Assembly (NCBI GenBank): GCA_903831545.1
Contig: CAIKYI010000558.1
Coordinates: 1 to 10,182, forward strand
Source of the DNA: an uncultured Methylobacter sp.
GTDB taxonomy: Bacteria > Pseudomonadota > Gammaproteobacteria > Methylococcales > Methylomonadaceae
Direction: 5' to 3'
Length of the DNA: 10,182 bases
The translations under genes were made by a program, and so were the position numbers. Position 1 is the stretch's first letter; every line of letters begins with the position of its first letter. Shown one piece after another: positions 239 to 10,182 of this stretch. Under the pieces are notes generated by a model. It saw only the letters and a program-made list of their open reading frames with translations, ran no database searches and had not been told where the DNA came from.

Positions 239-653
239 GTGGTGATTTTACTTTCATTAAAATAATGACCTATGAATTACTTAATTTTCATATTATACAA
301 TTGATTTATAAATATTATTTAATTAAATTGAGTATTGAATTGCAGGATTTAGGGATGATCTTATTGCCGAATAAAATCAGTCCACGGTTTTGAAAAATAA
401 AGATTAGAGAGATTTTTTAAAGCACATAAAACAACGATCAATTTGTCGTCATATCAAAATATGATTAATCCTTTTCTGTACTGAAATAAAAAATGATTTA
501 AGTAAAATTTAAACTAAATCAATAACACCAGGATTTGATCAACCGAACTATAAAAAATTTACAGTATCATATAGTATTATTTCATTTCTCTAGGTTCATG
601 TTCTGCCAATATGCATCCAGACAAGATATTCGGATCATTACCATTCATTGAAC
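239..653. other. AT-rich intergenic stretch, no convincing gene
   Basis: This stretch is strongly AT-rich and no reading frame in it looks like a protein. A 78-codon frame running 157-393 has low-complexity Leu/Ile/Tyr content and no recognisable domain, so it is left out. Two short dyads are visible: TCATAT-CAAA-ATATGA at 449-464, and a degenerate copy of the window's GTATGA/TCATAC-type element at 564-580. The stretch may hold upstream control sequence for the toxin-antitoxin operon that follows. Confidence 0.5.
564..580. repeat. Degenerate copy of the AT-rich palindromic element (site 1)
   Basis: The sequence GTATCATATAGTATTAT is related to the better copies near 1580 and 4130, which share the order TATCAT, ATATAGTAT. 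It is the left-most copy and lies about 75 bp before the operator of the toxin-antitoxin operon. The copy is imperfect and the DNA here is AT-rich, so chance resemblance is possible. Confidence 0.35.
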
Positions 654-678
654 AATGTGTTGACACTTGCAACACATT
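654..678. promoter_or_regulatory. Inverted-repeat operator over the toxin-antitoxin promoter
   Basis: AATGTGTTG (654-662) and CAACACATT (670-678) are perfect 9-bp inverted arms separated by 7 nt. A consensus -35 hexamer, TTGACA, lies at 660-665 inside the dyad. No strong -10 is visible at the right distance; TAATTT at 683-688 is the best 17-bp-spaced candidate and is weak. Ribbon-helix-helix antitoxins of this kind usually repress their own operon by binding such dyads, so this is the likely autoregulation site. The binding is inferred. Confidence 0.6.
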
Positions 679-723
679 AAGCTAATTTTTATCAATATTT
701 TTTATTTGAATAAGCATCTAATT

Positions 724-1005
724 ATGCAAACAACCGCTGAAGTAAATATACACTTGCGTGCCCGTGCGCATGACAAATTGCTCATTGACCAGGCAGTTGA
801 ATTGCTGGGCTCAAACCGTTCACAATTCATGATGGCCTCGGCTCTCAAAGAAGCTAAAAATGTAATTCTTGAGCAAACGTCAATTTATGTGGATAACCAA
901 ACCTTTCAAAATGTTCTGAGCTTGTTAGATACACCGGCAACAACAGAACAACTTGAAGGTTTACAGCGCTTAAATACTGTCAAAGCTCCTTGGTCGCATG
1001 AATAA
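724..1005 (+). CDS. DUF1778/TacA-like ribbon-helix-helix antitoxin
   Basis: A 93-residue protein of the DUF1778 (TacA-like) antitoxin family, partner of GNAT acetyltransferase toxins. Residues about 5-50 (VNIHLRARAHDKLLIDQA through NRSQFMMASALKEAKNVIL) match the family's N-terminal DNA-binding beta-strand and helices. The rest (about 55-93), ending LNTVKAPW, corresponds to the tail that neutralises the toxin. The frame extends upstream to 667, but the ATG at 724 gives the family's usual N-terminus, and the extra upstream residues are AT-rich and run into the operator region. The Shine-Dalgarno sequence is weak. The gene overlaps the toxin start by 8 nt, so translation is probably coupled. Expected role: neutralise the toxin and repress the operon through the dyad at 654-678. 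Confidence 0.88.
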   Translation: MQTTAEVNIHLRARAHDKLLIDQAVELLGSNRSQFMMASALKEAKNVILEQTSIYVDNQTFQNVLSLLDTPATTEQLEGLQRLNTVKAPWSHE

Positions 1006-1510
1006 AAAAACGGAATTTAGCGCACCGATTTATTTAACCGATGCGCATAAGACAGACGGTTTTCAATCTGGCGAGGAGGCCTTAGATACCTGGTTACAGG
1101 ATCGTGCGCTGGATAACATGAAAATTGGGGCAAGCAGAACTTATGTTGTTTGCCCAACTGCTACGCTTAAAATTATCGGATATTATGCTCTGTGTATGGG
1201 ACAGATTTTGAATGAGGATGTTACCGGGTCTATGCGACGCAATATGCCCAGACAGATTCCAACGGTCATTCTTGGCCGTCTTGCCATTGATAAACAATGG
1301 CAAGGAAAAGGCTTGGGCAAAGCACTTCTTCTAGATGCCGTTCAAAGGTCTGTACGGGCGGCAAAGGAAATATCGGCACGTCTTCTGGTTGTTCACGCAC
1401 TTTCCAAAGAAGCCGAGGCTTTTTATCTGCACCATGGATTTATTCGATTACCTATCGATGCACCGACTTACGCCATTGATCTCGTTAAGTTTGCCAGCCT
1501 TGTTGAATAG
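998..1510 (+). CDS. GNAT-family acetyltransferase toxin (TacT/AtaT-like)
   Basis: A 170-residue GCN5-related N-acetyltransferase of the type II toxin class that acetylates the amino group of charged tRNAs and blocks translation. Visible family features, in order: LDTWLQDRA (about 29-37), SRTYVV (46-51), GYYAL (61-65), VILGRLAIDKQWQGKGLG (90-107) with the acetyl-CoA-binding Q-G-K-G-L-G loop, and AFYLHHGF (141-148). Tyr143 in the last motif is the expected catalytic tyrosine. All these elements are present and the length is normal, so the toxin looks intact. It overlaps the antitoxin frame by 8 nt. The acetyl acceptor (which tRNA) cannot be read from the sequence. No clear terminator follows; a palindromic element starts 45 nt after the stop. 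Confidence 0.88.
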   Translation: MNKKTEFSAPIYLTDAHKTDGFQSGEEALDTWLQDRALDNMKIGASRTYVVCPTATLKIIGYYALCMGQILNEDVTGSMRRNMPRQIPTVILGRLAIDKQWQGKGLGKALLLDAVQRSVRAAKEISARLLVVHALSKEAEAFYLHHGFIRLPIDAPTYAIDLVKFASLVE

Positions 1511-1554
1511 TTAAATTACAAAACCAACAGCCCTGCTCTTTATAAAATAATTAC

Positions 1555-1590
1555 ATGATATTATATAGTATGATTTCATATCATACTATA
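1555..1590. repeat. AT-rich palindromic element (site 2)
   Basis: TATAGTATGA (1564-1573) and TCATACTATA (1581-1590) are perfect 10-bp inverted arms around a 7-nt centre. This is the GTATGA-N7-TCATAC form of the element. It lies between the toxin gene and the decayed gene on the opposite strand, and the last stop codon of that pseudogene (TAG, read at 1588-1586) falls inside the right arm. It may act as an operator or centromere site, or be a junction left by recombination. Confidence 0.75.
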
Positions 1591-2311
1591 GCTCTATTGC
1601 ACCACCAACTGCCCGCACCCCCCAAATAACAAATCCGTCTACCACTCCGTTTGTGGATCTGTAAGGTTTGGCATTGACTAGGGACTGTAATGAACCGTTG
1701 AGGATGTTTAAGGCTTGCTGGGATTTGGCATTAATAAATAAGCCTATCCTGGATTGGCCGACACAGCAGTGCCCTGGCAATCAGCGCTGCGGGTAGGTTT
1801 TTACACGAAACCCTAGCGCAGTTAACAAGCCTACTACGAAGGCTCGCCCACGGGGAAATTTCTAGGCTATCCGTTTCAAGATATGTAGCGCACCCAACAA
1901 CTCTAAAACTATCGTGTCACTGCCCTGCACTGCACCAGATTCATGGCCATCCATAAATCCCGATATATGGGATTATCTGTCGCCGCATCAATTGCAACGA
2001 CCTTGTTGTTTGAGTTCGGCAAAGCCTTTTAACAATTGCCGGTAAGCCGGGAAGTCAATTTCCGGCCACAGCTGTATGTCCTCGACAGATGCCCTGCCCT
2101 GCATGAACTGATCAAGTATTGGCTGTTGATCGCTCGCAATCTCCAGGTCTTTAAAAAATACGGTGGACTCTTGTTGTTTGTGAGTCTCGCCGATAATCGT
2201 TATGGTATCCGGCTTTAGCTGTTCAAGGATGGGATCGTAAACAGCAGGAAGCGTCGGGGCTGGTACCGATAATAGTATGATATTGAATGGTATCATACCA
2301 TATCGAATCAT
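1586..2311 (-). pseudogene. Decayed ChaN/Tiki-like (GETH motif) protein gene
   Basis: The remnant reads from 2311 down to 1586. Frame A (2311-1988) gives LPAVYDPILEQLKPDTITII, then GETHKQQESTVFF, then WPEIDFPAYRQLLKGFAELKQQG. Near 2000 the sense moves to another frame (VVAIDAATDNPIYRDLWMAM, down to a TAG at 1911-1909). It then returns to frame A as VLELLGALHILKRIA, an in-frame TAG, FVVGLLTALGFRVKTYPQR, an in-frame TGA, and LNGSLQSLVNAKPYRSTNGV to the end. The GETH motif and the later G-x-LH motif suit the ChaN-like haem-binding part of the Tiki superfamily; that family call is from memory of motifs. Two compensating frame changes and two stops make it non-functional. The first dozen codons lie in the palindromic element at 2272-2316, so the original 5' end (perhaps a signal peptide) seems lost. 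Confidence 0.78.
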
Positions 2312-2316
2312 ATCAT
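2272..2316. repeat. AT-rich palindromic element (site 3)
   Basis: ATAGTATGA (2272-2280) is followed 12 nt later by TCATAC, and TGGTATCATACCA (2288-2300) is itself a dyad with 6-bp arms and a 1-nt centre. Further TATCGAATCATATCAT half-sites run to about 2316. The stop codon of the ParG-like gene (TGA, read at 2315-2313) lies in the right edge, and the first possible start codon of the ChaN-like remnant is also inside. The element therefore marks the exact junction between two minus-strand genes. Confidence 0.7.
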
Positions 2317-2621
2317 TTTGTCAGCGCTTCAATCTTGCTGTCAATCGCGTCCTGCAACACATCAAGACAAAATTTCTGCATGCTGTCCGGGGTATGTTCG
2401 GCGATATATTTCAGCTTTAACAAATACGGTTCAGGCAGTCTCAGGTTATACACTTTGGTCACGTCTTCGCGTACCCCCTGCTCTTCCCAGGGAAAGGTGC
2501 TGTCCTGTTTCGCGGGGGCGGCTTCGACGGTTCGTTCATTGGCTCCGGCAATAAAGGCATCAATTTCCTCGGCCGTTTTTTTCCCGTTTTTTCCGGGCAA
2601 GCGGCTTTTCATGTTACTCAT
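2313..2621 (-). CDS. ParG-like ribbon-helix-helix centromere-binding protein
   Basis: A 102-residue protein placed directly after a ParA-type ATPase, as ParG follows ParF. Residues 1-50 are polar and look flexible (lysine/arginine-rich at first, then Pro/Glu-rich). Residues about 56-98 look like one ribbon-helix-helix unit: strand KVYNLRLP, helix EPYLLKLKYIAEH, then helix SMQKFCLDVLQDAI. This matches ParG-type partners, which dimerise, bind the centromere, repress the operon and stimulate the ATPase through the flexible N-terminus. The ATG at 2621 has AGAGG 9 nt upstream and overlaps the ATPase stop by 8 nt (ATGAGTAA), implying coupled translation. A second ATG three codons on is possible. 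The stop lies in palindromic site 3. The role rests on context plus fold; the sequence is not close to any ParG I could name. Confidence 0.75.
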   Translation of the reverse strand: MSNMKSRLPGKNGKKTAEEIDAFIAGANERTVEAAPAKQDSTFPWEEQGVREDVTKVYNLRLPEPYLLKLKYIAEHTPDSMQKFCLDVLQDAIDSKIEALTK

Positions 2622-3261
2622 CGCTAAATACCTCTTTATATAAGGTTTCCATTTCTTCTACGGCTTTTGCGTCTCTGGGTTTTAATTCGCTTACGCCCAA
2701 ACCGCTGCTGGCGGCTTTTCGATAGGCGATGCGATCTTTGATGCCGGTAGGGCTTAAGCTCAGATTGGTAAAGTCATTTAAAATTTCAACGGTATCATCG
2801 GATTCATGCACCGAAGGATTGGTAGACGAGCGGCTGATAATAACCCAGGCTTGCAAGTCGGGATTAAACGCTTTCGCGGTTTCGACCAGTTCGTCCATCT
2901 GGTTTAGCGTCCAGATATCAAACTGGCTGGGCTGGATGGGAATATAAGCTTTGTGCGCCACGACCATGGCCGATCTTAATTCAACCGAATCGCGACCGCC
3001 GGCATCGATGATGATGTCTTCATAACGGGTGGCCAGATCTTTAACTTCCGCCGGCAAGCCTTTACCGAATTTCTGCACGCAGGCAACCCGTGGCGTTATA
3101 TCCATTTCATCGCGGCTTTGCGCCCAATAGTTGGCGCTGCCCTGCGGGTCGGTATCTATCATTAACACGTCACGACCTGACAAAGCCCGCATGGCCGCCA
3201 GATTAGTCGCTATCGTGGTTTTTCCGGTGCCGCCTTTTTCGCCGCCAATTAAAACAATCAT
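2614..3261 (-). CDS. ParA/ParF-family partition ATPase
   Basis: A 215-residue P-loop ATPase of the ParA/MinD superfamily, in the short ParF-like class without an N-terminal DNA-binding domain. Visible motifs: deviant Walker A EKGGTGKTT (8-16) with signature Lys9 and Lys14; Walker A' VLMIDTDPQGS (32-42); and Walker B DIIIDAGG (82-89). These ATPases bind the nucleoid non-specifically when loaded with ATP and move cargo DNA through the centromere-binding partner. The length is close to ParF (about 206), and no part seems missing. The start at 3261 gives the usual N-terminus MIVLIGGEKGG; the Shine-Dalgarno sequence is weak (GAG about 10 nt away). Just upstream are a possible -10 (TATAAC, read at 3282-3277) and palindromic site 4, where a centromere/operator would be expected. 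It suggests that the region is, or came from, a low-copy replicon. Confidence 0.92.
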   Translation of the reverse strand: MIVLIGGEKGGTGKTTIATNLAAMRALSGRDVLMIDTDPQGSANYWAQSRDEMDITPRVACVQKFGKGLPAEVKDLATRYEDIIIDAGGRDSVELRSAMVVAHKAYIPIQPSQFDIWTLNQMDELVETAKAFNPDLQAWVIISRSSTNPSVHESDDTVEILNDFTNLSLSPTGIKDRIAYRKAASSGLGVSELKPRDAKAVEEMETLYKEVFSDE

Positions 3262-3276
3262 AGTAGGTCATCTCAT

Positions 3277-3310
3277 GTTATATCGTATGGTATGAAATCA
3301 TATCATACTA
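3277..3310. promoter_or_regulatory. Palindromic element (site 4), likely operator/centromere of the partition operon
   Basis: The element contains TATGAAATCATATCATAC (3291-3308), an N7-spaced pair of GTATGA/TCATAC half-sites, with an extra half-site CGTATGG just to the left (3284-3290). The 22 bp at 3289-3310 recur exactly at 3524-3545. It covers the 30 bp upstream of a candidate -10 (TATAAC on the minus strand, 3282-3277), with the ATPase start at 3261. The site and position are right for ParG-type autorepression and for a parH-like centromere. Protein binding is inferred. Confidence 0.65.
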
Positions 3311-3442
3311 ATGTTAAGTTTTTTGGTTATCGGATAAGGACATGCTGTCCGGTCAAGTCAGCAGGTCTTTTTTTCGGTTACTAAGCTCCGGCTTGAAAAC
3401 CTTTTTTGTGCATGTTGCGACAGCTATCAGCTTAAAGCGTGG

Positions 3443-3484
3443 GGGGTGCAAGCTCTGCTTGCGAGCAGGCGAAGCCTGCACTCC
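3443..3484. repeat. Cloverleaf-like double hairpin
   Basis: Two perfect 6-bp hairpins stand side by side: GCAAGC-TCT-GCTTGC (3448-3462) and GCAGGC-GAA-GCCTGC (3465-3479). An outer stem pairs 3443-3447 with 3480-3484 (one wobble pair). It is GC-rich in an AT-rich setting between the ATPase gene and the next module. It resembles small dispersed palindromic repeats (REP/BIME-like) found between genes in many gammaproteobacteria. No T tract follows on either strand, so it is not a simple terminator. Confidence 0.55.
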
Positions 3485-3523
3485 GAGTCTCTGGTACAGG
3501 AAGCTTGGGAACCGGAAACACGC

Positions 3524-3551
3524 GGTATGAAATCATATCATACTATATCAT
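3524..3551. repeat. AT-rich palindromic element (site 5)
   Basis: The first 22 bp (3524-3545) are identical to 3289-3310, with core TATGAAATCATATCATAC, and are followed by TATCATG. The stop codon of the minus-strand gene ending at 3548 (TGA, read at 3550-3548) lies inside it. Together with site 4 it brackets a 213-bp segment that holds the cloverleaf repeat but no gene. Confidence 0.75.
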
Positions 3552-3769
3552 GCCGCTTTGTCGCTATGGCCGTACAGATTACCAAACAGTCTGGTCACAA
3601 TGAAGATCATGGTTCGCGTGGTTTTGATCGCCGGAATCCGGCTGGGATCTTCTGCGGCGAAATCGTCAATCGCGGCATTCATAAACTCGACCAGACCCAT
3701 TTGCGGATTGTCCTTGATTACCCGGTTAACAAACCGATCCTGAAGTTTTGATTTTATTTTTTCGTCCAT
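3548..3769 (-). CDS. Hypothetical protein, second gene of a two-gene unit
   Basis: A 73-residue protein starting MDEKIKSKLQDRFVNRVIKD and ending FGNLYGHSDKAA. The composition is that of a small soluble, probably helical protein, with mixed charge in the first half and a more hydrophobic TMIFIVTRLFGNLYG segment near the end. I do not recognise the family. An open frame reaches 4042, but that extension is only the shadow of the upstream gene; the ATG at 3769 comes 10 nt after that gene's stop (3782-3780). Its stop codon is supplied by palindromic site 5. The tight spacing indicates one transcript with the 105-residue gene, and the location beside the partition cassette suggests a replicon-maintenance or accessory role, which is only inference. 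Confidence 0.6.
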   Translation of the reverse strand: MDEKIKSKLQDRFVNRVIKDNPQMGLVEFMNAAIDDFAAEDPSRIPAIKTTRTMIFIVTRLFGNLYGHSDKAA

Positions 3770-3779
3770 GTGCGTGTCT

Positions 3780-4097
3780 TTAACCAGCGACTGCAATTCT
3801 AGCGTCCAGGAGCACAGCTTGTTTGTCCAGCCAGTCGTAATCCATGTCAGCTTGAGAGGGCAGGGGACCGAAGGCGTGTTGAAAAACGCACAACACATCG
3901 AAGCAAAGATCCATGAACAGGTAAGCCATGTCTTCATTTTGTTCGGCGATAGCTTGCGGAAATAGGCCGAAAATCGCTTGAGCCAGGGCGGCTTGTTCGA
4001 GTTGGAACTGCTCAATAATTTTTGCACCGAATTCTTCGTCAATGCTCTTTGCGAAGGCGATAGCCTGGTACAGTTCTTGTTCGCTGAGTTCGTGCAT
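3780..4097 (-). CDS. Hypothetical acidic helical protein, first gene of a two-gene unit
   Basis: A 105-residue acidic protein starting MHELSEQELYQAIAFAKSID. It is rich in Ala, Leu, Glu and Gln and probably all-helical. A central stretch, LFPQAIAEQNEDMAYLFMDL, is followed by CFDVLCVFQHAFG with two cysteines at about 65 and 70. It ends with DYDWLDKQAVLLDARIAVAG. I cannot name the family. The frame is open up to 4133, but the ATG at 4097 is preferred because GAGGGAG lies 4 nt upstream of it, whereas the extension would be encoded by palindromic site 6. Site 6 sits right at the promoter position, so expression may be governed by the same factor that binds the other palindromes. The downstream 73-residue gene is co-oriented, 10 nt away. 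Confidence 0.7.
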   Translation of the reverse strand: MHELSEQELYQAIAFAKSIDEEFGAKIIEQFQLEQAALAQAIFGLFPQAIAEQNEDMAYLFMDLCFDVLCVFQHAFGPLPSQADMDYDWLDKQAVLLDARIAVAG

Positions 4098-4109
4098 TGC
4101 TCCCTCTAT

Positions 4110-4146
4110 TAGTATGATATGAATTGGTATCATACTATATCATATT
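4110..4146. repeat. AT-rich palindromic element (site 6)
   Basis: AGTATGATA (4111-4119) and TATCATACT (4128-4136) are perfect 9-bp inverted arms around 8 nt, followed by ATATCATA (4137-4144). The GTATGA and TCATAC cores are 12 nt apart, as in site 3, against 7 nt in sites 2, 4 and 5. It lies directly upstream of the Shine-Dalgarno sequence of the gene starting at 4097 and closes the palindrome-bearing block on the right. Confidence 0.75.
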
Positions 4147-4577
4147 AATTTATGAGGGGGCATCGTGCTGTTGGCGGAGTTAAGTTAGTCATCGTCAGTT
4201 GACGGCCAATTGTGGTCTTTGAGTACTTCGATAAAATAATCGTTTTAAGGACAGCTTATAGTCAGAAAACAGCCGCTCACTTTTTTGCAACGTCCTTGGT
4301 GTTGTCGGCTATCGCCGGGCTAGCAAGCACCGTTTCAGAATTTGACCAAAATGGACTCATAGAAATGATGGCCATCAATTTTTTTTACAAAAAAGGGTAA
4401 AACCATGTTGACTGGAAATGGAGTGGCTCATGTTGCTACAAGCAAATTGTGATCGACATGAGCCGTATTCCTAAAACTTCCTTGCTGTTTCATTCTGAGT
4501 AGCCAAAACAATATGAACTGCAGAAATTGGCTCGTAAATGGGGTTAACGCCAGAACTCTGCAGGCATGACGGCTTGA
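4147..4577. other. Gene-free stretch between the partition block and the exported-protein genes
   Basis: About 430 bp with no convincing gene. A 62-codon plus-strand frame (4212-4400) lacks a Shine-Dalgarno sequence and any recognisable domain, so it is left out. One dyad is visible: GGCTCATGT (4425-4433) and ACATGAGCC (4456-4464), perfect over 9 bp with a 22-nt loop and no T tract. This stretch is where the minus-strand transcript from 4578 would end, but I see no standard terminator. Confidence 0.45.
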
Positions 4578-5432
4578 TTAACTTGGTGGTTTTCGACGTT
4601 GTGCGCTGACTAGGCCTACCAACGCGCTGCCAAATAACCAGATTGAAGTGGGTATGGGTACTGCCGATGTTGTAATATTCAACGAATAACCCGCGAAAGG
4701 AGCAAAGTTAGTGCCTCCAGAATTTCCTCCTAGCAAAATCGTATAGATCTGTCCGGTGTTTGCGTGAAAAGTAATGCCGTCGCTCGAGTTTACGGTTGCA
4801 TCGTGAGTAAGGTAAGTCATACCACTTGCACTGAGAGGGTTATCCGAGTCGAAAGTAGGAGAAATTCGGACCCCATTGATGACGCAACTAGGGCAATTCC
4901 ATTGGCCGTGGCCATTCCAAGTACCCTCTGGCATGCCGGAAAAAATCGATATGCCGAAATTACTCCATGTTTCGGCGCTGCCAACTGGTTGAAGAGCACT
5001 GACCTTGATTGTTACATCGGTAGTGACATTCGCTCTAAATAATCCGACATCGGTATTATGTTCCCATCCTTTTGTGCCGTCGAACCAGGCGCCTTTTGCG
5101 GTGTCAATATCTGCCCAAATACCGTATCTATCATGGGCATCCTGAGATGAAACCGTTAAGGAGTCACCGCCCGTCGTGATTTCAGCAGCCCAGTGCAATT
5201 TGTCATTATTAAAACCGAAGGGAGTTAGTGATGAGGTCCATCCTGCAAAGACGGGGGATTCGTTTGCCCACCCATCAGCACCATGTTTATCGGTGTTAAT
5301 ATTTGAAGCGTATGCATTGACAGTGTTGTAGTAGGTGCTTGACGCCAGTGCGTTTGTGACAACACCCACCGTCAACATCGAACCGGCGATGGTGTTAGTT
5401 ATTGCTAACGCGAGCCTGCTTTGTTTTTTCAT
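4578..5432 (-). CDS. Exported protein with VPxPA/PEP-CTERM-type sorting tag
   Basis: A 284-residue secreted protein. Residues 1-30 form a signal peptide (MKKQSR, then a hydrophobic core, cut after TNALA). The C-terminus from 258, VPIPTSIWLFGSALVGLVSA followed by QRRK, is the tripartite sorting tag of the VPLPA/PEP-CTERM type: short Pro motif, membrane-spanning segment, basic end. Exosortase-type enzymes recognise such tags and move the protein to the outer surface. The body is rich in Thr, Ser, Gly, Asn and Trp with predicted beta structure (WAAEITTGGDSLTVSSQDAH; GIWADIDTAKGAWFD) and has one CxxC pair (Cys180, Cys183). I do not recognise the body domain. GAGG lies 7 nt before the start. It follows a second tagged protein by 96 bp on the same strand. 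No exosortase is in the window. Confidence 0.82.
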   Translation of the reverse strand: MKKQSRLALAITNTIAGSMLTVGVVTNALASSTYYNTVNAYASNINTDKHGADGWANESPVFAGWTSSLTPFGFNNDKLHWAAEITTGGDSLTVSSQDAHDRYGIWADIDTAKGAWFDGTKGWEHNTDVGLFRANVTTDVTIKVSALQPVGSAETWSNFGISIFSGMPEGTWNGHGQWNCPSCVINGVRISPTFDSDNPLSASGMTYLTHDATVNSSDGITFHANTGQIYTILLGGNSGGTNFAPFAGYSLNITTSAVPIPTSIWLFGSALVGLVSAQRRKPPS

Positions 5433-5528
5433 GTTAGTACCTCAATCAGATCAAGACTCTAAGCGCGCTCCATCCACCTGCTGTTTGAGTGGATCAAGCA
5501 CACTGATCATCCAAGCTAAACGGCGAAA

Positions 5529-6380
5529 TTAATTTTTTTTACGGCGAGCGGTTCCTGCCATGCCTAAGATCGCACTTCCAAACAACCAAGCTGCAGCTGG
5601 AATGGGCACTGCCGCTACTTGAGTGATGGTCAGAGATACAGGGAAGCCGCCCATCGAACCAACACCACCACCGTAATCCTTATGCCCGGTCATGCCCAGC
5701 CAACCGGTGAGATACGGCCCCATCATGCCCAATCTGGTTTCGTCGGCATAGACCATCTGTTCCATGATTGTCTGGGTAACGTTTGTTGGGTCGTTTTTGT
5801 CAAATACCAGGGTAAAGAAACCGTTGTTGTTGCGCGCGTTATTGTTACCTATGAAAGTCGTAAGATTTAAGCCTAATGCCCACGCGTTGTTGGGATTGGT
5901 GTCCGGATCCGTGCCCCAAACGTCATAGCCTCCGCCCGCCACAACATCAGTGCTGTTCTTCAAGAATGTGGTCGCCGTCACCAGGTTGCCGTTGATGGTG
6001 GTCGGTACAAGGTTATCGTAAGTCAAATGCAGAAGTGGGTATTCATTGTTCACGTAACCGCCGGGTTTGTTATAAACCTCTGTCAAGTAACCCGAACCGA
6101 TCACACTGCCGCCGTTGGTACCGCCAGAACCCGTGCCATTGGCATCAAATCTCGTACCGCTCCACCCAAACATGGATTCACCCAGGAATCCGGTAAAGTT
6201 CGTTACATTAGTCCCGTCGAAGTCGAAAGAGCCGTTAAAATCAGTCCAAGGATTTGGCTGACCGGGTTGGGTAAAACCACCGTCGATAAATCTTGCGGTC
6301 ACATTGTAAGTGGACGCTTGAGCCAGGGTAGAACTGCCAGCCAGCAGCACAGCTATGGCTAATTTGGTATTTAGTTTCAT
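5529..6380 (-). CDS. Exported protein with VPxPA/PEP-CTERM-type sorting tag
   Basis: A 283-residue secreted protein. The start at 6380 is chosen because it opens directly into a signal peptide (MKLNTKLAIAVLLAGSSTLA, cut after AQA at 22) and has AAGGCG about 6 nt upstream; the open frame reaches 6506 but that extension looks non-coding. The C-terminus from 258, VPIPAAAWLFGSAILGMAG then TARRKKN, is a classic sorting tag. The mature part is unusually rich in Gly, Asn and Thr (several GGG and NNN runs; DTNPNNAW; NNNARNNNG), typical of extracellular matrix or surface proteins in this class. I do not recognise a named domain. The protein is not obviously homologous to its tagged neighbour outside the tag, though both tags begin at residue 258. 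The two genes could share a transcript, since the 96-bp gap contains no clear terminator. Confidence 0.85.
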   Translation of the reverse strand: MKLNTKLAIAVLLAGSSTLAQASTYNVTARFIDGGFTQPGQPNPWTDFNGSFDFDGTNVTNFTGFLGESMFGWSGTRFDANGTGSGGTNGGSVIGSGYLTEVYNKPGGYVNNEYPLLHLTYDNLVPTTINGNLVTATTFLKNSTDVVAGGGYDVWGTDPDTNPNNAWALGLNLTTFIGNNNARNNNGFFTLVFDKNDPTNVTQTIMEQMVYADETRLGMMGPYLTGWLGMTGHKDYGGGVGSMGGFPVSLTITQVAAVPIPAAAWLFGSAILGMAGTARRKKN

Positions 6381-6452
6381 AAGTACGCCTTGGTATATAC
6401 GATTAAAGTCTGAAGGAAATGTACGGTTTGCAAATGTCATGCACCGCAAGCC

Positions 6453-6498
6453 TGCAAAGATAACTCCCTGTATCGCTTGCCCTATATGAATATAGGGC
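6453..6498 (-). promoter_or_regulatory. Palindrome and weak sigma-54-like motif upstream of an exported-protein gene
   Basis: GCCCTATA-TGAA-TATAGGGC (6479-6498) is a perfect 8-bp-arm dyad about 100 bp upstream of the start at 6380. Just downstream on the minus strand, GG (6467-6466) and GC (6455-6454) are exactly 10 nt apart, and the -12 part reads TTGCA. That is the spacing of sigma-54 promoters, although the -24 half matches only at GG. PEP-CTERM gene sets in other bacteria are often driven by sigma-54 with the PrsR activator, so the motif is worth noting, but the match is weak. Confidence 0.35.
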
Positions 6499-6506
6499 GC
6501 TTTCAT

Positions 6507-8186: not shown

Positions 8187-8322
8187 ATTTTTCCTGTTTG
8201 TATTTTTGATTTAGCCTTGTTGTTACTAACCAAAACAATATTTAATGTTTCAAGTTTAGCCGTAGTTTGGCTTAATACTTATCTTTTATACTAAAAAAAA
8301 CATTTTAGTAATTTCAGTGTCA

Positions 8323-8336
8323 TTTCATATCATACC
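8323..8336. repeat. Half copy of the AT-rich palindromic element (site 7)
   Basis: TTTCATATCATACC matches the right half of site 2 (TTTCATATCATACT, 1574-1587) at 13 of 14 positions. It lies between the membrane-protein gene and the recombinase promoter, far from the other copies, and lacks the left half-site. Confidence 0.4.
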
Positions 8337-8395
8337 GGCGTGTTTTTATGCTTCTTAATAGGCGTTTTTTTGCGTGGCATAACATAAGTTACGTT

Positions 8396-8424
8396 TTGCC
8401 ATTCTCACTAAAACTCTATAAAAT
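8396..8424 (+). promoter_or_regulatory. Sigma-70-type promoter of the recombinase gene
   Basis: TTGCCA (8396-8401) and TAAAAT (8419-8424) each match the consensus at five of six positions, with the ideal 17-bp spacer. Transcription should start near 8431, giving a leader of about 70 nt that contains the hairpin at 8449-8486. Confidence 0.6.
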
Positions 8425-8448
8425 AGTAATTTTAGTAAATACAGTATC

Positions 8449-8486
8449 CGTGGATTGGACCTGAAAATACAAATCAGGTTTCCACG
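8449..8486 (+). promoter_or_regulatory. Leader hairpin upstream of the recombinase
   Basis: CGTGGA (8449-8454) pairs with TCCACG (8481-8486), and ACCTGA (8459-8464) with TCAGGT (8474-8479), around a 9-nt loop and an asymmetric bulge (TTGG against T). It ends 8 nt before the GGAG ribosome-binding site at 8495-8498. It may be a leader control structure, or a recombination site with paired arms for the recombinase it precedes. Confidence 0.45.
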
Positions 8487-8503: not shown

Positions 8504-9436
8504 ATGACCGATTCAATTGAAACTGCATTCGACAGAACCCGAAAAGAATTCCTGAGCTTTTTGAAATACACCAAAGGCCATGCCGATACCACTTGCTACA
8601 ACTACCATTCTGATCTGGGTATATGGCAGCGCTGGCTGCTTGGCGCAGAACTCGACTGGCAAAACTGCGGCCCGACCAACGTCGAGCATTTTGTCGCACA
8701 TTTATCTAGGGAAGGGGTAGGGGCGCATGCCGTTGCTCGGAAGATTTCCTGCCTGGCCACCTTTTACCGCTGGGCCAAGCGTAATAATAAAGTACAGGAA
8801 GATCCGATTTACCAGATTGAAAAGCCCAAACGACCCCGGCGTATGCCGGTGTGGCTGGAAACCGAAGAACAAACCGCGCTGCTCAAAGCCACCCGCAACT
8901 ATGACGACATCCCCGATAACGTCTTTGGTCGCAGTCGCGAGTTTTCGATGGGGGTGCGTCAGCGCTATGAACTGCTGTTTGAACTGATCCAGAAATCCGG
9001 TCTTCGCATCAGCGAAGCCCTGGGGCTCAAAGTCCAGCATATCCGGGTCGTTGATGGTATGGCCAAACACGTCAGGGTGATAGGGAAGGGCAATAAAGAA
9101 CGCCAGGTGCCGTTGCCTGAATCCTTTGCCCGGGTGCTGGCCTTGTCGCTGAACGGAAAAAATGCCGACGATTATGTGTTCGCCAAAAAGCCCGGCGGCA
9201 AACCGCCCGGTCCCCATGCGGTCCGAGCCTATTTAAAGAAACTGATCGACAAGGCTGGCATTGACAAAAAAGTCACCCCGCACAAATTGCGCCACACTTA
9301 CGCCACCCGGCTGCTAGAAAAGGATGTACAACTGGTCGACATACAAGCCTTGCTTGGTCACGAGAGCATTGCCACCACGCAGATATATACCCATGCGGGG
9401 CAGGAGCGGTTATCCAAATTGGTTGCGGATATATAA
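8504..9436 (+). CDS. XerC/XerD-type tyrosine recombinase
   Basis: A 310-residue site-specific recombinase of the phage integrase/Xer family. The N-terminal SAM-like DNA-binding domain spans about residues 8-95 (FLSFLKYTKGH; SCLATFYRWAK). The catalytic domain runs from about 115. All six active-site residues are present: Arg168 (SGLRISEALGL), Lys195 (VIGKGNKER), His260 and Arg263 (TPHKLRHTYATRL), His286 (LLGHES) and the nucleophile Tyr295 (TTQIYTHA). The length is close to XerC/D (about 300), with a short insertion around 131-150 (NYDDIPDNVFGRSREF). GGAG lies 5 nt before the ATG, and a good promoter and hairpin precede it. It is probably a plasmid or island recombinase rather than the host's own XerC/D, judged from context only. 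The broken gene at 9448 follows 11 nt after the stop and was probably co-transcribed. Confidence 0.92.
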   Translation: MTDSIETAFDRTRKEFLSFLKYTKGHADTTCYNYHSDLGIWQRWLLGAELDWQNCGPTNVEHFVAHLSREGVGAHAVARKISCLATFYRWAKRNNKVQEDPIYQIEKPKRPRRMPVWLETEEQTALLKATRNYDDIPDNVFGRSREFSMGVRQRYELLFELIQKSGLRISEALGLKVQHIRVVDGMAKHVRVIGKGNKERQVPLPESFARVLALSLNGKNADDYVFAKKPGGKPPGPHAVRAYLKKLIDKAGIDKKVTPHKLRHTYATRLLEKDVQLVDIQALLGHESIATTQIYTHAGQERLSKLVADI

Positions 9437-9912: not shown

Positions 9913-9982
9913 CAATACTATTTAAATCCATCCGCGACGCTAGCTCCCCAATCTGCCTATGCGGCAGAAACTGAAACCGTTC

Positions 9983-10182
9983 TGGTTCATCCCCACAGAT
10001 GTGGGGAACACAATTGGAGTACCGGTATACGTATCAGAAAAAACGGTTCATCCCCACAGATGTGGGGAACACCTATCTCAGCAATTTTGTATTCTTGTTT
10101 ATCACGGTTCATCCCCACAGATGTGGGGAACACATGTAAACACACCCGCGCCGGACGGAATAAACCGGTTCATCCCCACAGA
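9983..10182 (-). CRISPR. Type I-E CRISPR array, trailer end (continues beyond window)
   Basis: Three full 29-bp repeats (9983-10011, 10044-10072, 10105-10133) and a cut fourth (10166-10182) are separated by three 32-nt spacers (10012-10043, 10073-10104, 10134-10165). The 29/32 rhythm and the repeat, which on the minus strand begins GTGTTCCCCAC and ends GTGGGGATGAACCG, match subtype I-E; the stem is CCCCACA/TGTGGGG. By that orientation transcription is leftward, the crRNA 5' handle is ATGAACCG, and the leader and cas genes would be to the right. The left-most repeat differs at one terminal base (T for C at 9983), as expected of the trailer end. The spacers do not match elsewhere in the window by eye. 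Confidence 0.97.

Follow-up and report, generated by a model that had tools for sequence, protein, structure and literature searches.

Centromere-binding proteins of type Ib partition systems double as repressors (PMC5016525; this paper and the others named here are cited from excerpts), and in pSM19035 the copS, delta, and omega promoters overlap with parS arrays that consist of 7-bp repeats (PMC9499535). Short sites of another kind are the 28-bp pdif sites, in which a 6-bp spacer stands between XerC and XerD arms, and whose modules are shuffled (PMC13141974). In this study, a 10,182-nt stretch of DNA from an uncultured Methylobacter sp. (GenBank assembly GCA_903831545.1, contig CAIKYI010000558.1) was analysed. 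This stretch, hereafter the window, is the entire contig C558 of a genome that is 72.7% complete and present in 805 contigs. It carries a partition (par) locus with a ParF-like gene (parA) and a parG-like gene, and copies of a short palindromic element lie between the genes of this region. An initial annotation had favoured recombination between the copies and had set aside a dispersed operator/centromere; overall, the latter is the best supported explanation and fits better than module exchange.

Arrays of 5-bp units at the par locus

The window was scanned with the degenerate 24-nt pattern RTATNATATNRTWTYATAYYATAY, with up to 3 mismatches allowed. Matches were found only at 564-587, 1558-1591, 2275-2318, 3280-3308, 3520-3553, and 4112-4150, and the 24 overlapping matches compare with 0.01 expected (200 shuffles). 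Similarly, five clusters of TATGA/TCATA words were seen against 0.03 expected (100 shuffles). The six copies reported initially are thus all present, far above chance, and the observation of repeated palindromes is confirmed in a form stronger than first stated. As had also been claimed, the copies lie at the edges of gene units, both in the window and in its relatives. The array at 3277..3312 is directly 5' of parA, and the array at 2272..2318 is at the parG stop codon and includes the start codon of a ChaN-like gene. The array at 4110..4150 is 5' of a gene of about 180 amino acids (aa), with 17 nt between it and the frame to which relatives match, and the array at 3520..3553 is at the end of this gene, with its parA-side arm stopping at filler DNA. 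The copy at 1555..1591, found by word clusters and by the pattern scan, is flanked by tacT and a ChaN-like 3' remnant, which converge on it with their 3' ends. The copy at 564..588 is degenerate and the weakest of the six, having one pattern match (2 mismatches) and lacking a word cluster; it lies 135 nt 5' of the tacA ATG (724) and agrees with 1559-1582 at 21 of 24 positions in the same orientation. Between positions 400 and 4400, there are 14 promoter-like matches against 8.5 expected (standard deviation 2.9), including several weak ones on arrays, and 2 terminators against 4.2 expected in shuffles.

Within each place, overlapping 24-nt matches step in multiples of 5 nt. Each 'palindrome' is therefore composed of 5-bp units, RTATG in one arm and CATAY in the other, which form an array and not a palindrome of fixed length. 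Array lengths differ in 5-nt steps between copies, and an inversion centre is present in many of them. The fraction of unit spacings (between successive ATG or CAT words) divisible by 5 was 0.869 in 42 arrays (L045, L073, and L013 excluded), against a mean of 0.204 and a maximum of 0.292 in 200 shuffles, with the qualification that these arrays were chosen by short words of the repeat, so that regular copies may be favoured. Arrays are also more alike within a locus than between loci, as expected of one binding protein, at a level reached in 1 of 5000 permutations (43 arrays, 11 loci) by a test that ignores relatedness. L074 has 17 consecutive ATATG units 5' of a parG-like gene; it has no parA match, and its contig ends 37 nt past the run, so that a parA could lie beyond.

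In the window, parA (2614..3261, minus strand) encodes a ParF-like Walker ATPase of 215 aa, the closest solved relative of which is ParF (PDB code: 4dzz; E 2.8e-14). It matches NCBIfam ParA_partition with E 3.3e-47 and 160.7 bits, under the 180-bit cut-off. The parG-like gene (2313..2621, minus strand) overlaps parA and encodes 102 aa. Its product is probably a ribbon-helix-helix DNA-binding protein, as suggested by weak Mnt and Arc matches, by its size, and by its position after the ParF-like gene; no Pfam or NCBIfam family at cut-off covers it. Among 7992 scored candidates, 1127 relatives of the ParG-like protein were found. There were 17 matches in 13 of the 237 genomes of the family, matches in 6 PLSDB plasmid records, and one genome, the window's own, in a class-wide sample of 369. 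The protein P0018, on a 7134-base contig, is 98% identical to that of the window. IMG/VR held no ParG-like relative, and phage records gave no ParG-like match.

The integrase, parA, and parG-like genes and neighbouring proteins were compared with loci of genomes and plasmids, and 17 parA loci were counted: the window, L064-L073, L034, L038, L044, L045, L095, and L096. Two of them, L071 and L072, are nearly identical and belong to the same genome. The count excludes L013 (a near-duplicate of L066), L074, shorter or overlapping copies of counted loci, and L097 and L098, in which parA is 45-47% identical, the partner is unmatched, and no array is present. The order around parA and parG is cpYpsA, the ~180-aa gene, a ~177-aa gene, parA, the parG-like gene, and the ChaN-like gene. 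Gene order and orientation are identical in every par locus mapped, and few loci carry all of the genes. cpYpsA is present in L064 and L065 (Pfam was run on L064 only), and the ~177-aa gene in L064, L065, and L068, with its 3' part kept in L038; at its position the window has a 213-nt filler.

The arrays keep their places relative to these genes. Of the 17 loci, 13 have an array directly 5' of parA and 12 have one at the parG stop, where it is missing in L044, L045, L073, L095, and L096. Arrays also precede the ~180-aa gene in six of the eight loci with the gene start in view (not L071 and L072), the ~177-aa gene in three of three, and cpYpsA in two of two, and a Nitrosococcus plasmid has an array before parA too. 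In L044, an array (8322-8350) is inside the parG coding sequence, at an insertion of that protein, and related repeats are seen by eye inside the parG coding region of L045. At least one array was on the stretch examined for 16 of the 17 ParG-like matches, the exception being L058 (pINp10 plasmid). Ten integrase loci have no parA on the stretch examined (L007-L010, L012, L014, and L017-L020, several of which are short contigs); nine of these are without a match, and the tenth, L017, has a single weak one. The arrays accompany parA/parG rather than the integrase.

Alternatively, the copies could be neutral AT-rich simple repeats, (TATGA)n, or elements like repetitive extragenic palindromes (REP) without a binding protein, in agreement with the run of ATATG units in L074 and with array lengths that change in unit steps. 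This is very unlikely in view of the repeated position, the inversion centre in many copies, the association with parA/parG loci, and the array found at the corresponding place even in Nitrosococcus.

Reading frames at the arrays and their predicted function

It had been argued that an operator/centromere cannot explain why reading frames end and start at the copies. The frame ends themselves were verified (the parG-like TGA at 2315-2313, a TGA at 3550-3548, and a TAG at 1588-1586), and simpler causes for them were found. Stop codons are present in 27 of the 36 frames that cross the six window copies, whereas length-matched random stretches of the window have stops in 14.7 of 36 frames on average and in 25 at maximum (2000 draws). 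Of the 12 loci with an array at the parG stop, 11 have this codon (TGA, TAG, or TAA) in the first array unit; in L066 it is a few bases before the array. Therefore, stop codons occur at copies because the arrays are tight against genes and because most frames of the TATGATATGA run contain stops, while a start codon occurs at a copy because the ChaN-like coding sequence begins inside one array.

The ChaN-like remnant was also thought to have lost its 5' end at a copy, which is not the case. The ChaN start codon is inside the parG-stop array in six loci (the window, L064, L067, L068, L071, and L072), so that the array supplies the 5' end of the gene and does not mark its loss; the start is elsewhere in L065 and after a further array in L038. 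The first residues, such as MIRNHIISYLIILLLLPITSLA in L064, resemble a signal peptide by eye. In the window, the gene is divided on the minus strand into a 5' part (1988..2311) and a remnant of the 3' region (1586..1780), the frame of which ends within an array, with 207 nt between the two frames. Compared with the L064 protein, the first frame lacks 15 residues after position 56 and stops at residue 121, and the second matches residues 197-249, the final 16 residues being unmatched. The ChaN label is a weak one, since Pfam ChaN matches the window with E 0.011, L064 with 1.1e-5, and L068 with 8.3e-4, all below cut-off.

It is likely that the copies are binding arrays, here predicted from sequence, for the ParG-like protein, whose gene lies between two of them, and that they serve as operator and centromere of the partition locus. 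The repeated position, the 5-bp phase, the association with parA/parG, the constant gene order, and the overlap of arrays with the parG stop and the ChaN start all point to this function. ParG-like dimers would bind the 5-bp units cooperatively, and the array before parA would repress the par operon. The remaining arrays would repress their own genes, and jointly the arrays would form the centromere that is moved by ParA. A more far-reaching version, tentative and rather doubtful, is that a centromere of 5-bp units, each half a helical turn, is split into an operator in front of most genes of the locus, is itself translated as the ChaN signal peptide, and is a preferred site of gene gain and loss, in which case captured genes would come under ParG-like control.

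Several observations weigh against an operator/centromere, in addition to the choice of arrays and the disregard of relatedness in the two tests described above. By the 24-nt scan, no array precedes parA in L069, L073, L045, and L095, although variant array forms are seen there by eye in L045 and L095, and L073 is without any array. Array likeness shows no within-locus excess in L066, L070, and L072. In the window, the copies at 1555 and 564 are not directly before a gene, and lone copies are present in G020, G032, G158, and G163, genomes without a detected parG. The predicted DNA-binding protein is itself weakly matched: E values are 0.12-0.14 for Mnt, an Arc match was obtained in 12 of 34 ParG-like members with a best E of 0.034, the AlphaFold model is poor (pTM 0.37), and a fold search with this model found no match.

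Recombination and copies outside par loci

In the explanation preferred initially, the copies are recombination joints, at which homologous or site-specific exchange adds or removes modules. Some junctions do coincide with copies. L038 has a truncated ~177-aa gene, the homology of which resumes 2 nt past an array, and a second array with a duplicated parA start follows. L067 has a single array where L064, L065, and L068 have an array, the gene, and another array. By eye, L041 and L042 have a common flank up to the array and differ beyond it, the flank being retained on one side only in L041. In the window, the filler (3311-3523) adjoins an array, and the TacAT pair is flanked by two copies that are 88% similar and in the same orientation. 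Most genes are separated by arrays, so that any clean loss of a gene would have to end close to one. In the mapped par loci, moreover, none of the modules seen had moved within a locus, and copies are absent from the 11 loci with a TacT homologue (2.1-3.5 kb scanned in each). Array lengths that vary in 5-nt steps are unlike a fixed recombination core, and the arrays keep their places relative to genes and go with parA/parG. An array of exchangeable modules is therefore unlikely. The breaks expected at a palindrome were found in L038 and in L041/L042, and a few gain or loss junctions at copies stand, but modules are not reordered in the mapped loci and free exchange is unsupported. Given these junctions, the arrays may also be recombination-prone, and a limited role of recombination is kept alive by L038, L041, the TacAT bracket, and the copies outside par loci.

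The search for the consensus in related genomes, as suggested initially, did yield copies, some of which are outside par loci. The strict palindrome pattern has matches in 8 of the 237 genomes, and the contigs with copies outside par loci are of multi-megabase size in G020, G094, G158, and G163 and of 16.6 kb in G032; in G094, a parG-like gene was detected on a different contig from the copy. On the YRD-M1 plasmid (L034), a copy has an AAA gene on one side and a YdjM-type gene on the other (Pfam). Arrays that directly precede the gene of a YdjM-type membrane protein, with an AAA gene nearby, were observed at L034 17043-17086, L037 3239-3282, and L042 8319-8362. By eye, L037 and L042, one on a contig of chromosome size and the other on one of 16.6 kb, resemble L034 with one extra frame between. 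In L062 (G102:C2), a second ParG-like match with an internal stop has arrays alongside and shares its contig with the L070 parG; it is perhaps a decayed second par locus. In IMG/VR, the strict pattern matched 63 stretches, nearly all of them once. The 24-nt pattern gave 14 calls in these stretches (531 kb), and a lone array match therefore means little.

A further possibility is that the copies are sites of the XerC/XerD-like tyrosine recombinase (integrase) encoded at 8504..9436 on the plus strand, as in an integron- or dif-like cassette array. A partial seventh copy (8316..8335), absent from the initial list and missed by the 3-mismatch pattern, is indeed present in the integrase leader, 168 nt before the gene, and a better copy is at the equivalent place on the YRD-M1 plasmid. 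However, the leader has its own inverted repeat, TACTAAAA-N6-TTTTAGTA (8289-8310); of 14 aligned leaders, 12 show it by eye. In the window this repeat is exact at 8289-8310 and has 3 mismatches at 8416-8437, neither of which is a module edge. The copies are also without two fixed arms and a constant spacer, and nine of the ten integrase loci without parA have no copy. Integrase sites are therefore highly improbable and were rejected, because the leader repeat is separate and absent from module edges and the arrays do not follow the integrase. The inverted repeat is possibly the recombinase's own site. The leader is conserved (window 8289-8450; L007-L017, L019, and L036) and also includes a block like TTAATAGGCG-TTTTTTGC. 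An integron cassette array was rejected in turn, as the scores of the recombinase, all below cut-offs, are higher for XerC/XerD than for integron integrase. So were pdif/Xer modules, since the copies are not 28-bp sites but differ in length by steps of 5 nt, and since the mapped relatives keep one gene order.

Other genes of the window were reinterpreted or identified as follows. What had been described as a two-gene unit (3548-4094) is a single open frame in relatives and hence one gene split in the window, its first half at 3780..4094 and its second half at 3548..3769, both on the minus strand. The halves are offset by one base, which may be real or an assembly error. As one open frame, the gene has 179-190 codons in L034, L064, L065, L067, and L068, 166 in L071, and 137 in L072, and the contig of L038 begins inside it. 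The filler (3311..3523), where three relatives have the ~177-aa gene, had been read as a cloverleaf. A tRNA-like structure does not hold for this segment, which gave no tRNA and no Rfam match at gathering score and has an unremarkable fold (z -1.75; 8 of 200 shuffles equally good). About 43 nt of it are a hairpin repeat (3442-3484) that is dispersed in this family, and, with three candidates scored per genome, the filler was matched in 31 other genomes of 237 searched, nearly always at the hairpin stretch. On the plus strand, a TacA-like antitoxin (724..1005; Pfam TacA1, E 1e-14) is followed by a TacT-like GNAT toxin (998..1510; Pfam Acetyltransf_7, E 2.2e-9). Two predicted proteins at 4578-6506 have endings that, by eye, resemble PEP-CTERM sorting signals. 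The window ends in a CRISPR-like array (9982-10182) of four CGGTTCATCCCCACAGATGTGGGGAACAC repeats with a 61-nt period, the first repeat being slightly different and the last cut by the contig end.

Comparison with described partition systems

Three features of type Ib systems were compared with the present locus. A small ParF-like ParA ATPase (~200 aa) is represented by the 215-aa protein of the window, and a centromere of direct and inverted repeats 5' of the par operon is represented, as sequence, by the array before parA. Carriage on plasmids is seen in the six PLSDB records, the replicon type of the window being unproven. In literature searches restricted to open-licence papers, the entries listed included no description of such a repeat centromere or of a methanotroph ParG. 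Plasmids and contigs from several methanotroph genera carry the locus, which ties genes of unknown function to one candidate regulator.

Acinetobacter pdif modules are similar in that genes, including toxin-antitoxin pairs, are bracketed by short sites on plasmids (PMC13141974), but the arrays described here vary in length, and the loci seen share one gene order. TP228 parFGH shares a ParF-like ATPase gene followed by a small parG-like gene, as well as repeats 5' of the operon (PMC5389482, PMC5016525). Whereas TP228 has one upstream centromere/operator, the window locus has arrays at several genes and a 5-bp phase.

The type Ib delta-omega-parS system of pSM19035 shares a ParA-type ATPase with a small partner, in the window a probable DNA-binding protein, and has several arrays of short contiguous repeats that overlap promoters of several genes (PMC9499535), as the window locus has arrays at several genes. 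Its genes are transcribed separately (PMC5016525), whereas parA and parG of the window overlap, and the genes associated with the arrays differ. The type Ib centromere described in detail, that of pSM19035, has 7-bp WATCACW repeats (PMC9499535), while the window locus has 5-bp units, neighbours among which, being contiguous, would face opposite sides of the helix and would require a different packing of the binding protein. Unlike in pSM19035, one array of the window locus is read as the start of a protein, so that a predicted binding array doubles as coding sequence.

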